This document shows positions 11,148 to 33,011 of a stretch of 33,011 nucleotides of DNA, in pieces; the stretch's first letter is position 1; each line of letters starts with the position of its first letter. The stretch comes from a virus, in the IMG/VR virus record IMGVR_UViG_3300048028_000012, positions 1 through 33,011 of that record. The stretch is one strand, 5' to 3'. Below the pieces are notes generated by a model. That model was not told the DNA's origin. It saw only the letters and a list, made by a program, of their open reading frames with translations, and searched no databases. The position numbers and the translations under genes are program-made.

Positions 11148-11831
11148 TTACTTGTTCTTTGCTTGAGAGTTGATGAAGTCATTGAGCATAGCCTGACCAT
11201 CTTTCTTAGGCATAGTTGTTAGGTCTTTAGTGAAGCCTGTAACCTTGCTACCATGCTTGTCGATCTGCTCCTGCATTGAAGCCTCAAAGACTTTCTGCTC
11301 TTCAATGGTACGACCTGACTTACGAGCGTGTATTTTAAGCCATACCTGCTCAGTACGTTCTGATGGTGGTGTACCATTGCTTGAACCTAGTGTCTTAGGA
11401 TTGAAAGCCTCGTCAAGCTTAGCTGAGTACGCCTCGCTACCCATCCACTGCTCACCATAGGTAGCCTCGAACAAGTCACGAAAGATAAGGTACTCAGCTT
11501 CGCTATTAGTAATGGCTGACTCAGCACATTCGTAAGCATCCAAGAGTTTCTCGCTACTGTTCTTAGCAAGGCTCTTCTCGATGTTGTCAAGTCTTTCATG
11601 TGACTTGGCAAGCTGTTGCTGTGCTGTCTTACAGTATGCACCATACCTCATTAGTATAGACAATCTCCAGAATGGGTTGTCTTGACCTGAGTCTGTGTGA
11701 TCGTCAACAAACTCTGAGGTATATTTCTTAGAGTACTCAGTCTTCTCTTGTTCACCCATGTCGAAGTTCTCGATCCATGTGTCTGTGATTATAGTGTGTA
11801 CGTCTTGTGTTTTGATTTTTGATTTTGACAT
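11148..11831 (-). CDS. Hypothetical early protein, coiled coil
   Basis: A 227-aa acidic and basic mixed, strongly helical protein; TAGGAG lies 7 bases ahead of the ATG. Residues about 70-105 (QQQLAKSHERLDNIEKSLAK) suggest a coiled coil. No catalytic motif, cysteine pair or membrane segment is seen and I do not recognise the family. It is the second gene of the leftward block, with its own hairpin leader and its own strong terminator, so it forms a separate early unit. Early, highly expressed, unrecognised phage proteins are often host-takeover or DNA-binding factors, but nothing here proves that. Confidence 0.75.
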   Translation of the reverse strand: MSKSKIKTQDVHTIITDTWIENFDMGEQEKTEYSKKYTSEFVDDHTDSGQDNPFWRLSILMRYGAYCKTAQQQLAKSHERLDNIEKSLAKNSSEKLLDAYECAESAITNSEAEYLIFRDLFEATYGEQWMGSEAYSAKLDEAFNPKTLGSSNGTPPSERTEQVWLKIHARKSGRTIEEQKVFEASMQEQIDKHGSKVTGFTKDLTTMPKKDGQAMLNDFINSQAKNK

Positions 11832-11909
11832 TGTGTTCTCCTATGTTTGATTATGTCATATGATTGTGGGCAACATGCCCGGTAGTATGGGTAGCCTTTC
11901 GACTACCCA
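11832..11909 (-). promoter_or_regulatory. Two-hairpin leader of the 227-aa gene
   Basis: TGGGTAG/CTACCCA (11888-11894 with 11903-11909) and GGGCA/TGCCC (11868-11872 with 11876-11880) form two compact hairpins, followed by TAGGAGAACACA and the ATG. The outer hairpin contains the TAG stop of the preceding 66-aa gene. There is no U tract, so these look like processing, stability or translation-control elements rather than a terminator. Confidence 0.5.
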
Positions 11910-12103
11910 ATTTTGTTAGTGTCTAAGTATAAATCCCAATGTGCTATATCAAGTGCCTGCTTGTGGCATTTGGTAATGTTGACTGCATGATTGTATAACT
12001 TCCAAGTCTTGATGTAGTGATCATGTTTCTTGGCAACCTTTAGTAAGTTACTGTATAGTTTTATATCCTTGTCAGTAGCTTTGATGCATATTATTTTAGT
12101 CAT
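11903..12103 (-). CDS. Small basic early protein
   Basis: A 66-aa protein, the first gene of the leftward block; AAGGAGATAGTA stands directly ahead of the ATG. It is rich in Lys, His and Tyr (KVAKKHDHYIKTWKLYNHAV) with no domain recognised. The strong ribosome site and first position make it a real, early-expressed gene. A weak hairpin ATCCC/GGGAT (12123-12127 with 12138-12142) lies in its leader. Function unknown; a nucleic-acid-binding or host-interacting peptide would be typical of the position. Confidence 0.65.
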   Translation of the reverse strand: MTKIICIKATDKDIKLYSNLLKVAKKHDHYIKTWKLYNHAVNITKCHKQALDIAHWDLYLDTNKIG

Positions 12104-12318
12104 TACTATCTCCTTATGTTATATCCCAACACTCACAGGGATGTTTTCCTTTATGATACGGTCTCAACGTTGCTCTCGGAATTAGTCAACATCTTACATT
12201 TCTGACGAAGAGAAAATTCAATAATAACTAATAGTATTTTCTTTAGGAAAAATGTCTGCCCAATAAATGTCCTTACATTTATTTGGATAAGGTGTTTACT
12301 TGTTCGGCCTGTTAGTAA

Positions 12319-12409
12319 GTCTTATAACAAATAGCCAACACAGGTTTGTGTATAGCTTCGGTCTGCTATTTGTTGTTAGAGTTAGTTACAGGTGAGAGTG
12401 ACGTAAGAC
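12319..12409 (+). ncRNA. Structured RNA element A (three-way junction candidate)
   Basis: GTCTTA/TAAGAC (12319-12324 with 12404-12409) encloses two helices: AACAAATAGC/GCTATTTGTT (12326-12335 with 12365-12374), itself capped by a small ACAC/GTGT hairpin, and GTTAC/GTGAC (12385-12389 with 12398-12402). The last helix and the U12325-G12375 extension use G-U pairs in the + strand reading, which favours rightward transcription. There is no coding potential. Confidence 0.5.
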
Positions 12410-12432
12410 CCGTAGGATAATAAAGAAAAACA

Positions 12433-12547
12433 ATCCCTGTGTGTGTTCTCACAGATATGTGAGGAGCAGGCGAGTATGTGCCTGCTCTGAACGAAACAGG
12501 ATAAGCAAAAGTTGTTGCTTGTTTTGTAATCTTTTGCGTCAAAAGAT
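12433..12547 (+). ncRNA. Structured RNA element B (cloverleaf-like)
   Basis: ATCC-TGT pairs with ACAGGAT (12433-12440 with 12496-12502; one bulge). Inside, GTTC/GAAC (12445-12448 with 12489-12492) closes two hairpins: TCACA-GATA-TGTGA (12449-12462) and GAGCAGGC/GCCTGCTC (12464-12471 with 12480-12487). Two more hairpins follow: AAGCAA/TTGCTT (12503-12520) and ATCTTTTG-CGT-CAAAAGAT (12529-12547). The strand cannot be fixed from these stems alone. Confidence 0.5.
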
Positions 12548-12591
12548 GATTGTCCGAAGCCACCTACAGAATAGATATAGATAGCGTAGAA

Positions 12592-12714
12592 CTGCATTAA
12601 CGTCCCTTTTCTGTGTTCTGTTGACGAAAGCTAGGGTAACGTAACGATAGCATGACTAAGAGTCATGTGGTAGTGGATGTTACTCTAGCCTAAAGAAAAG
12701 GAAACGGACTGCAG
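12592..12714 (+). ncRNA. Structured RNA element C (long nested stem)
   Basis: Five helices nest in perfect order: CTGCA/TGCAG (12592-12596 with 12710-12714), GTCC/GGAC (12602-12605 with 12706-12709), CTTTTCT/AGAAAAG (12606-12612 with 12694-12700), GCTAGGGTAAC/GTTACTCTAGC (12630-12640 with 12679-12689) and CATGACT-AAG-AGTCATG (12651-12667). The 11-bp helix contains a G-U pair only when read on the + strand. Thirty-four pairs in 123 bases, nested over the full length, are hard to explain by chance. Confidence 0.65.
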
Positions 12715-12812
12715 GACAATAATTGGATACTGATCGAACCACCTGTGTTAATAAGCTATACAATGTAAGTAGTGTCATGTTATCCATATTAATCTCCATA
12801 TAGCCATTGAAG

Positions 12813-12919
12813 ATACATAGCCATCGTTCTGTTGTCAAAATGCTATATTTACCACATGCGAAGCATGGCGTGTAAATAAGCAATTTATCTCTTTTGACAA
12901 TACGGTTGTGGCTATGTAT
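12813..12919. ncRNA. Structured element D (four nested stems, GCGAAGC tip)
   Basis: ATACATAGCC/GGCTATGTAT (12813-12822 with 12910-12919), TTGTCAAAA/TTTTGACAA (12832-12840 with 12892-12900), TGCT-TATTTAC/GTAAATA-AGCA (12841-12852 with 12872-12882; one bulged A) and ATGC-GAA-GCAT (12856-12866) are nested. The tip GCGAAGC is the unusually stable mini-hairpin known from single-strand replication origins such as that of phiX174. It could be RNA or an extruded DNA structure. Confidence 0.65.
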
Positions 12920-12924
12920 TACCA

Positions 12925-12937
12925 CGTTTGTGCATTG
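12925..12937 (+). promoter_or_regulatory. Copy 1 of the CGTTTGTGCATTG motif
   Basis: CGTTTGTGCATTG lies about 160 bases ahead of the terminase small-subunit gene. The same 13-mer recurs exactly at 13543, and close variants lie at 16390, 19623 and 31160, all on the + strand ahead of rightward genes. No good -10 box follows this copy at 17-18 bases. Confidence 0.6.
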
Positions 12938-12986
12938 ACAGAGGGTACGTAGGGATGTGACAAAAGGGGGGATTACAGGGGGGTTA

Positions 12987-13067
12987 TCTCTAGCGTAGAG
13001 AAGTTTTGATGTTACTTTTTCAAAAGTAACTGGTTTGCTACTTGTCCAACAAGTAGGTCTGAAAGAC
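12987..13067 (+). promoter_or_regulatory. Four tandem hairpins ahead of the terminase small-subunit gene
   Basis: TCTCTA-GCG-TAGAGA (12987-13001), GTTACTTT-TTCA-AAAGTAAC (13011-13030), CTACTTGT-CCA-ACAAGTAG (13038-13056) and GTCT-GAA-AGAC (13057-13067) stand in a row just upstream of the ribosome site. They could be the 3' end of the structured RNA, an attenuator, or recognition sites for terminase (cos/pac), which phages often place next to this gene. Confidence 0.55.
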
Positions 13068-13097
13068 ATTTATCTATGTGATATAGGAGGGATACAT

Positions 13098-13469
13098 ATG
13101 ATTGAGCAACGTAAGTTAACCAAGAGACAAACAGCATTAGTTGATACCATCGTAGCAAGTGGATGTACTGTGAAAGAAGCGTCGGTGCAGGCAGGATATG
13201 CAGATGGTGAATCAGGAAGAGTGACAGCCAGTAAGACTTTGAGACTGCCACATGTACAACAGTATATGATGCAACGTATAAGTGATAGTATAGGATTGAG
13301 TGCTACGACGGCATCGAATAGGATACTGACCCTAGCTAAAGGTGCGAAGAGTGAGTACGTTCAGCTAGAAGCGAGCAAGGACATACTCGATCGTGCAGGG
13401 TTCAAAGCACCAGACAAACACATGCATCTACATGCAGGGGAAATAAAAGTGCAGATAGATTTGACCTAG
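13098..13469 (+). CDS. terS: Terminase small subunit
   Basis: A 123-aa protein. The ATG at 13098 follows AGGAGG by 7 bases; the longer frame from 13035 runs through hairpins and is not used. It matches the Terminase_2 pattern: LTKRQTALVDTIVASGCTVK, EASVQAGYADG, then a basic region TASKTLRLPHVQQYM and a C-terminal LEASKDILDRAGFKAP. It recognises phage DNA and recruits the large subunit for packaging. It is the first rightward gene, immediately behind the structured non-coding region, and is flanked on both sides by G6 tracts that are rare elsewhere in this AT-rich genome. Confidence 0.88.
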   Translation: MIEQRKLTKRQTALVDTIVASGCTVKEASVQAGYADGESGRVTASKTLRLPHVQQYMMQRISDSIGLSATTASNRILTLAKGAKSEYVQLEASKDILDRAGFKAPDKHMHLHAGEIKVQIDLT

Positions 13470-13587: not shown

Positions 13588-13884
13588 ATGGCAACACCGG
13601 CATGGACAAGAAAAGCAGGCAAGAATCCCAAGGGTGGATTAAACGCAAAGGGTCGTGCGTCTTATAAGAAAGGCACATTGAAAGCACCTGTTAAGAGTGG
13701 AGACAATCCAAGGCGTGCATCTTTCTTAGCGAGGATGGCAGGCAACAAAGGTCCTGACAGAGATTCCAAAGGTAAACCTACAAGGAAGTTATTATCCCTC
13801 AGAGCATGGGGTGCATCAAGTTCTAGTGATGCAAGAGCAAAGGCTAGGGCAATATCAAAACGAAATAAATCAAAGAAGGGATAA
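13588..13884 (+). CDS. Small basic phage protein (DUF6321-like)
   Basis: A 98-aa, very basic protein that begins MATPAWTRKAGKNPKGGLNA. It continues with KSGDNPRRASFLARMAGNKG and GKPTRKLLSLRAWGASSSSD. This is a highly conserved small protein in marine phages (DUF6321-like; the number is from memory). It is likely nucleic-acid binding and may be a minor virion or packaging-linked protein given its place beside terminase genes. It is preceded by a copy of the repeated GTTTGTGC motif and opens the cluster of tiny basic proteins. The ribosome site is weak. Confidence 0.75.
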   Translation: MATPAWTRKAGKNPKGGLNAKGRASYKKGTLKAPVKSGDNPRRASFLARMAGNKGPDRDSKGKPTRKLLSLRAWGASSSSDARAKARAISKRNKSKKG

Positions 13885-14184: not shown

Positions 14185-14312
14185 TGGACTGGATAACAGC
14201 AGACCTAGTCACAGTTTTACATGAGATGTCTTGGTTTGATGGAATCAGTTATATTTTTTTAGGTTTAGGTGTTTATGCAACTGTTAAATGGATTAATAAC
14301 AAATGGCGTTAA
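14184..14312 (+). CDS. Tiny membrane protein
   Basis: A 42-aa frame starting at the ATG that overlaps the previous stop (TGATG) and ending inside the next gene. It has one probable membrane span (about 22-36: ISYIFLGLGVYATVKW) with a basic end (NNKWR). The tight overlaps on both sides support a real gene. It is odd to find a membrane peptide among the basic proteins; a role at the cell membrane during infection is possible but unproven. Confidence 0.55.
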   Translation: MDWITADLVTVLHEMSWFDGISYIFLGLGVYATVKWINNKWR

Positions 14313-14563
14313 AGAAAACACAGAGGTCACTGCGTGCTTGGACTAAACAAAAATGGCGAACCAAAAGTGGTAAACCTAGTACACAAGGGAGTAAAGCAAC
14401 AGGCGAACGTTATCTACCTGAGAAAGCAATTAAAGCTTTATCGGACTCTGAATACAAATCCACTACGGCTGCTAAACGCAGAGCAGTTAGAAGAAATAAA
14501 CAAGTATCTAAACAGCCCAAAAAGATTGCAGGCAAAACGAGAAGCTTTCGCTCTTACACATAG
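14303..14563 (+). CDS. Small basic phage protein (DUF5872-like)
   Basis: An 86-aa basic protein: SLRAWTKQKWRTKSGKPS at the N-terminus, then GERYLPEKAIKALSDSEY, a Lys/Arg-rich stretch and KQPKKIAGKTRSFRSYT. This 'W.kqkWRTkSGkpS ... tgeRYLP..ai..L' pattern is a conserved phage family of unknown role (DUF5872-like; the number is from memory). It is the fifth of five tightly packed small genes. A second frame at 14334-14579 is its shadow. Confidence 0.75.
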   Translation: MALKKTQRSLRAWTKQKWRTKSGKPSTQGSKATGERYLPEKAIKALSDSEYKSTTAAKRRAVRRNKQVSKQPKKIAGKTRSFRSYT

Positions 14564-32444: not shown

Positions 32445-33011
32445 ATGTTTAGTTCAGAAGCATGGTTAGCAAATCCTGGTGCAGGTTTCTATAATGGTGT
32501 TGCTACACAGTCATTAAGGTTTGATGATGGTAGTAGTCCATATCTAACTAAAACATTCGGCTCTGATGGAACTGGTAGTGGTGCAACTTGCACAATTTCT
32601 TGCTGGGTTAAAAGGGCAAATATATCTAATAATGACCAATGGTTTTTTACTGCTGGTGCATCAAGTCCTGCTTGGCTACTAGGGTTTAGAACTGCTGATA
32701 CTTTAGCTTTTGGTGATGATGATGGCAACCCTACTGTTACAGTAACTGATAGGGTTTTTAGAGATACTTCAGCTTGGTATCATATTGTATTAAGAGTAAA
32801 AACTTCTGAATCTGCCAATGCTGATAAATACAAAATATATGTCAATGGTGAATTACAAGCTACAACTTTTAGTGGTACTGCAGCAGATACTCTTTTTGGT
32901 GCAAACGTAGTGCATAATATAGGTAGATACCCAACTGGGTCAACTTATGTAGATTTATATATGTCTGAATTAAATTTTGTAGATGGTTTAGCATTAGATG
33001 CTAGTTATTTT
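32445..33011 (+). CDS. Receptor-binding tail fibre, N-terminal part (continues at 135-2030)
   Basis: The first 189 codons of the distal fibre. GGTGA stands a few bases ahead of the ATG at 32445. The protein begins MFSSEAWLANPGAGFYNG and contains a LamG/concanavalin-like jelly-roll domain: QSLRFDDGSSPYLTKTF, TISCWVKRAN, WYHIVLRVKTSE, YKIYVNGEL and MSELNFVDGLALDASYF. These domains bind carbohydrate or protein surfaces, which fits host recognition. The frame is open to the window end and matches the frame entering at base 9, so the gene crosses the circle junction and encodes about 820 aa in all. Confidence 0.85.
   Translation, partial: MFSSEAWLANPGAGFYNGVATQSLRFDDGSSPYLTKTFGSDGTGSGATCTISCWVKRANISNNDQWFFTAGASSPAWLLGFRTADTLAFGDDDGNPTVTVTDRVFRDTSAWYHIVLRVKTSESANADKYKIYVNGELQATTFSGTAADTLFGANVVHNIGRYPTGSTYVDLYMSELNFVDGLALDASYF
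32886..33011. repeat. Right copy of 126-bp terminal direct repeat
   Basis: Identical to bases 9-134. Upstream of the match, the right end reads Thr-Ala-Ala-Asp, whereas the left end has Pro-Ala-Asp with a synonymous Ala codon. The eight extra bases at the left end therefore look like they come from a closely related strain or read-end error. Confidence 0.95.

Follow-up and report, generated by a model that had tools for sequence, protein, structure and literature searches.

A probable large structured RNA with replaceable arms upstream of the terminase small-subunit gene in marine phages

Few giant phage RNAs are known, and none has a settled function. GOLLD and ROOL are large phage RNAs of unknown function that are often found near tRNA islands and form RNA-only nanocages (PMC12286853). 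Other structured RNAs bear comparison on grounds of context. The packaging RNA (pRNA) of phage phi29 is about 174 nt long, and RNAs of its type serve a motor that has no small terminase. The put antiterminator RNAs of phage HK022 are short paired stem-loops that lie upstream of operons and act in cis. RNA II of ColE1 is a long structured transcript that primes replication and carries G tracts near its 3' end.

Here we describe a gene-free region in a 33,011-base virus record (the window, meaning the whole stretch of DNA analysed), whose nearest isolate by large terminase (TerL) is Pelagibacter phage EXVC031P Hodr (66% identical). The region, 12104-13097, is bounded by a leftward 66-aa gene (11903-12103) and the gene for the terminase small subunit (TerS; 13098-13469), and the two gene sets of the genome diverge from it: leftward genes at about 4-12 kb encode ERF and RecE-like recombination proteins and a helix-turn-helix protein, and the rightward virion genes encode TerS, TerL, portal and major head protein. 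A first-pass annotation, made by reading the letters, had called this the sole long non-coding stretch of the genome and placed about 1 kb of gene-free sequence just before TerS. The former claim held in part, as this is the longest gap and other non-coding gaps exist; the latter held, but the conserved unit spans only about 12110-12935, and 12991-13097 proved to be an insertion confined to the nearest relatives. No tRNA (0) or tmRNA gene was detected in the window. The window's ends (1-134 and 32878-33011) have 130 of 134 bases in common, so the record probably represents a whole genome that is circular or terminally redundant. Between TerS and TerL, 13588-13884 and 14303-14563 encode proteins of 98 and 86 aa, both small and very basic, which might bind nucleic acid and could conceivably be partners of the RNA. 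The features referred to below are as follows, all on the + strand.

12110-12935, +: the whole non-coding RNA unit (beginning at about 12110, with its structured body ending near 12920), defined by an identity jump, structure, covariation and G-U versus A-C counts
12123-12142, +: small hairpin ATCCC...GGGAT at the 5' end, next to where the leftward gene starts, from the alignment, with equivalents in relatives (e.g. CCTA/TAGG in L092)
12142-12432, +: domain A, long and multi-branched, 106 consensus pairs, 50 with compensatory change
12200-12254, +: replaceable outer arm of domain A, with L082 and L172 carrying different versions
12519-12562, +: hairpin GTTTTGTAA(T)CTTTTGC..CAAAAGAT preceding the core, from RNAalifold helices
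12549-12564, +: 5' half of the core, stem1 ATTGTCC plus loop strand GAAGCCACC, with stem1 covariation in 22 distinct sequences
12628-12692, +: domain B, GCTAGGGTAAC...GTTACTCTAGC, an internal loop and hairpin, supported by covariation and by covariance model R1, which finds distant members
12705-12720, +: 3' half of the core, loop strand CGGACTGCA plus stem1' GGACAAT, supported by stem1 covariation
12814-12919, +: domain C, a long hairpin arm, 18/31 pairs with compensatory change
12832-12905, +: replaceable outer arm of domain C, seen as an identity drop between the window and L176 and between L092 and L175
12935-12940, +: TTGACA, the -35-like box of a putative TerS or late promoter, present in most relatives, including those without a recognisable RNA
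12966-12983, +: double G tract GGGGGGATTACAGGGGGG, its second tract placed in relatives like the ribosome-binding site of TerS
12991-13097, +: insertion of about 107 nt shared by the window, L173 and L176, which forms three hairpins, supplies a new ribosome-binding site and lies outside the RNA family
13098-13469, +: TerS (phrog_2538, PF03592), the constant downstream neighbour

Selection on an RNA fold

In near relatives, identity jumps from about 50% to at least 95% at 12110, adjoining the start of the leftward gene, which sets the 5' edge of a unit about 820 nt long. In many relatives (e.g. L116, L123 and L092), the sequence complementary to the ribosome-binding site of the first leftward gene is followed by a small hairpin, which might either stabilise the early mRNA at its 5' end or be the opening hairpin of the rightward RNA.

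The + strand of the region folds at -330.6 kcal/mol, compared with -253.1 +/- 7.2 for shuffled sequence (z -10.7), and the - strand also folds well (z -8.9). In 87 relatives, the median z over the 405 nt preceding TerS was -5.6, against -0.4 for 60 control windows downstream of TerS, none of which fell below -4. These z values rest on 12 shuffles each, and single values are hence noisy; the window's own 405 nt reached just -0.9, a stretch partly made of its insertion. The + strand was the more stable in 79/87 relatives, which is weak evidence of strand because the controls lean likewise (41/60).

Stronger evidence comes from comparison. RNAalifold, applied to the + strand of 10 representative relatives, predicted 200 pairs, 80 of them covarying, which confirms the nested stems and junctions that the first-pass annotation had proposed. 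Alignments of nine to eleven diverged sequences per domain then allowed each domain to be scored. In domain A, 92.6% of cells pair and 50/106 pairs show changes on both sides, with a covariation of 0.363 (0.146 +/- 0.011 shuffled, at most 0.077 when slid); domain B is 99% paired with a covariation of 0.259 (0.157 +/- 0.015 shuffled); and domain C, with compensatory change in 18/31 pairs, reaches 0.511 (0.191 +/- 0.022 shuffled). The structures were derived from the same alignments on which they were scored, giving them an advantage over slid versions, but this does not account for the number of both-sided changes. A covariation search without the nesting requirement mainly recovered known helices and did not establish pseudoknots. 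Long-range pairing of the region's two ends, suggested by the single-sequence fold, was rejected as partly an artefact: the ribosome-binding sites of two divergent genes are inverted repeats by nature and make up part of it, the window-specific insertion also contributes, and its outermost pairs show no covariation in the 10-relative RNAalifold analysis.

Pairs predicted on both strands distinguish the strands directly, since G-U cells number 35 (28+7) and A-C cells only 7 (5+2); the functional strand is therefore +, and the RNA reads rightward. The first-pass annotation had noted such G-U pairs at three positions, and the effect is stronger than it stated. The same counts bear on the view that the region is a DNA-level element only, with hairpins serving replication, packaging or recombination and no RNA involved. 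Its intergenic position between divergent operons and the good folding of both strands would suit that view, but a preponderance of G-U over A-C is not expected of a DNA element, and we regard the view as very unlikely. Selection acts on the fold at the RNA level.

Hidden protein genes were considered and rejected. Open reading frames within the region (65-129 aa) lie on the minus strand; the longest (129 aa) bears stops in most diverged relatives, the remainder are interrupted, weakly similar or short there, and no reading frame conserved across relatives was found. Absent covariation and a conserved coding frame, either of which the first-pass annotation had said would refute an RNA, were thus both examined, and neither did so. 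Its reading of a large structured phage RNA is supported by covariation in all domains and by the lack of a conserved frame, in the absence of transcript data, and the region very likely does encode a large structured RNA, of a family that Rfam 15 lacks.

Core loop, replaceable arms and fixed position

The core of the unit consists of a conserved internal loop (GAAGCnACG / CGGACTGnA) enclosed by a stem that covaries. Its order is the stem, GAAGCnACG, an insert of about 43-172 nt that contains domain B in most members, (C/A)GGACTG(G/C)A, and the other half of the stem. Among 22 distinct sequences, stem1 shows both-sided changes in 8/8 pairs, with a covariation of 0.626 (0.225 +/- 0.036 shuffled, at most 0.21 slid). 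The loop letters were themselves the search pattern, so their near-invariance is partly a matter of selection; the stem was not in the pattern.

Homologues were found in about 50 related marine phage contigs, some of them cut before TerS. Relatives had been gathered by TerS and TerL scans. A motif scan blind to TerS added 12 further new contigs, all homologues, and a scan of 2.9 million viral contigs with the loop strands only gave matches of two kinds, near TerS and elsewhere. Matches near TerS mostly pair at 6-7 of 7 flanking positions, compared with 1-4 for matches elsewhere; TerS-linked members that pair poorly at the core stem are L186, L190 and L030 (2/7) and L166 and L170 (4/7). The members near TerS lie about 95-300 nt upstream of it on the same strand, and include phages whose TerS is 33-39% and TerL 55-58% identical. 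In the context-blind scans, all true members with downstream sequence present sit upstream of TerS. The fixed place just upstream of TerS is thus shown.

Covariance model R1 of domain B, built from close relatives, independently recovers L133 (E 5e-7), L097 (2e-4) and the distant L179, L181, L193 and L196 (E about 4e-5). A third, cross-clade model was omitted because its alignment had the domain B stem out of register. Direct similarity searches of phage records yielded only a chance 35-nt match, and the DNA of two distant members was also unmatched there. The core scan of 84,980 bacterial and archaeal genomes gave 34 matches, none with a convincing stem; occurrence in bacterial hosts or prophages was rejected, all 34 being chance by the stem test. 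The distant members have TerS proteins with only about one-third identity, which makes this an old family, probably common in marine phages.

Not every relative carries this RNA. In Hodr (L177, 5594-5930), the sequence between the divergent genes ahead of TerS forms, for the most part, a single long and almost unbroken hairpin (z -5.0), shorter than the window's RNA and unrelated to it in sequence, and many relatives have short or different structures there; the family is therefore not essential to the whole phage group. Upstream of TerS in L101, L112, L123, L072 and L147, 405 nt fold into extremely stable structures of -188 to -236 kcal/mol in which the core cannot be recognised; these may be additional large RNAs, unrelated to this one, that occupy an equivalent site. 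L030 and L135 share an alternative 3' domain (CAAGAGGGGAAGAGGTTGGGC..TATCCGTTGCACAG...CTGATGCCTTAGGTTG) where domain C would be.

Between otherwise near-identical copies, two outer arms, in domains A and C, are replaced wholesale. The window and L176 are 88-100% identical (mostly 95-100%) over most of the RNA, compared with 45-59% over 12832-12911; L092 and L175 fall to 42-56% in the same domain C arm and are about 90-100% identical elsewhere in the RNA; and L082 and L172, 93-100% identical in the rest of the RNA, diverge over 12192-12271 in the arm of domain A. In both domains the replaced arms retain pairing. A search for one arm type found it only within this RNA, upstream of TerS. These swaps suggest that RNA modules are exchanged much like tail-fibre genes.

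Promoter-like module and possible functions

The structured body ends before the conserved TTGACA, which is followed after 17-18 nt by a weak -10-like hexamer. Hodr has TTGACA-N17-TATACT at the corresponding place, a good sigma70-type promoter by sequence. TerS is therefore likely to have its own promoter downstream of the RNA and to be transcribable without it, an inference from sequence with no transcript data behind it. After TTGACA, most relatives, even diverged phages, have the double G tract, in which a few bases separate two runs of 5-7 G, and it occurs also in relatives without a recognisable RNA. The tracts could mark a transcription start and a ribosome-binding site, or be a regulatory or packaging site. 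At the RNA's own edges, we found no promoter position common to relatives on the 5' side and no terminator on the 3' side or between RNA and TerS.

Our leading reading, inferred only and in our judgement no surer than its opposite, is a free-standing RNA that acts in trans; it is favoured because the promoter-like TerS site lies downstream of the structured body. Such an RNA would be its own rightward transcript of about 820 nt, made during infection. The partner bound by its core loop would be one conserved among these phages or among their hosts, and specificity would reside in the replaceable arms, which phages would exchange by recombination. The identity of the partner and the role (assembly, packaging or host control) are not shown. 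Against this reading stand the lack of a consistent 5'-edge promoter and of a 3'-edge terminator, and the unvarying position before TerS would also suit a cis-acting element.

That alternative, which remains possible, is a leader: the RNA would form the start of a long transcript that continues into TerS, and would control the late genes, for instance as an antiterminator in the way of the put RNAs or as an attenuator. The constant spacing and strand relative to TerS, kept even at 33-39% TerS identity, and the missing terminator between the two favour it. The promoter-like TTGACA between RNA body and TerS counts against it, as do the many relatives with short or different structures before TerS. 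Known phage antiterminator RNAs are, moreover, far smaller than about 820 nt with replaceable arms.

The first-pass annotation had raised packaging, an idea that our results leave neither demonstrated nor ruled out; the location before TerS on which it leaned is strictly conserved. An RNA that takes part in DNA packaging or virion assembly, acting together with TerS, TerL or the portal as pRNA does in phi29, would fit the constant neighbourhood with terminase genes, and variable arms around a conserved core loop would befit a machine part made for a particular partner. We nevertheless hold it unlikely, as phi29-type motors lack a small terminase, both TerS and TerL were detected here, and no match to the Rfam pRNA model was found. 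Equally doubtful is an origin transcript that primes replication at the 3' G tracts, as in ColE1 RNA II. Leftward and rightward genes diverge here, the cumulative GC skew begins to rise at about 10.5-12 kb, and G tracts follow the RNA; but the tracts also occur without a recognisable RNA and are placed like the ribosome-binding site of TerS, the skew also tracks gene direction, and no iterons were found.

A bolder reading, which we consider improbable, sees here a kind of giant phage RNA not described before, in which a conserved core serves as recognition loop and interchangeable arm cassettes recombine between phages; it would act with the terminase or late machinery as an RNA component of assembly. 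Were it true, the arms would set specificity between competing phages.

Comparison with known RNAs

Searches of Rfam 15 at gathering and loose thresholds gave no credible match, in the window (11800-13110, E<=10) or in 17 related loci (E<=1). The candidate classes of the first-pass annotation, GOLLD, ROOL and pRNA, therefore failed: GOLLD had no match at either threshold, ROOL no covariance-model match in the window or its 17 relatives, and the pRNA model no match in phages that have TerS and TerL. In open-licence PMC papers, the only literature covered (no subscription journals or preprints), nothing on such an RNA was found.

This RNA is a separate family whose function is made testable by an unusually clear anatomy: its edges are defined, the conserved core motif is small, arm-swap variants occur naturally and the neighbouring gene is constant. 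It resembles the put RNAs of HK022 as a phage RNA structure upstream of an operon, but is more than ten times larger and is separated from TerS by a promoter-like site. With ColE1 RNA II it shares length, structure, G tracts near the 3' end and a possible origin site; it differs in having no sequence or Rfam match and in that its G tracts are not tied to the RNA's presence, and origin function was untested. Like phi29 pRNA it is a phage RNA, in a suggestive packaging-gene context, but it is about 820 nt long and belongs to phages with a classical TerS/TerL pair.

By homology the RNA is neither GOLLD nor ROOL, although these are nearest to it in kind. ROOL is likewise a large phage or prophage RNA with a complex fold and unknown function (PMC12286853); the two differ in location. 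GOLLD is often, though not universally, near tRNA islands (PMC12286853), whereas the present RNA precedes TerS in a window with no tRNA gene. The two are nonetheless similar. GOLLD too is an ornate, phage-encoded RNA of at least 800 nt whose function is unknown; it has a conserved part and a variable one and, like the present RNA, is known from marine samples (PMC12286853).
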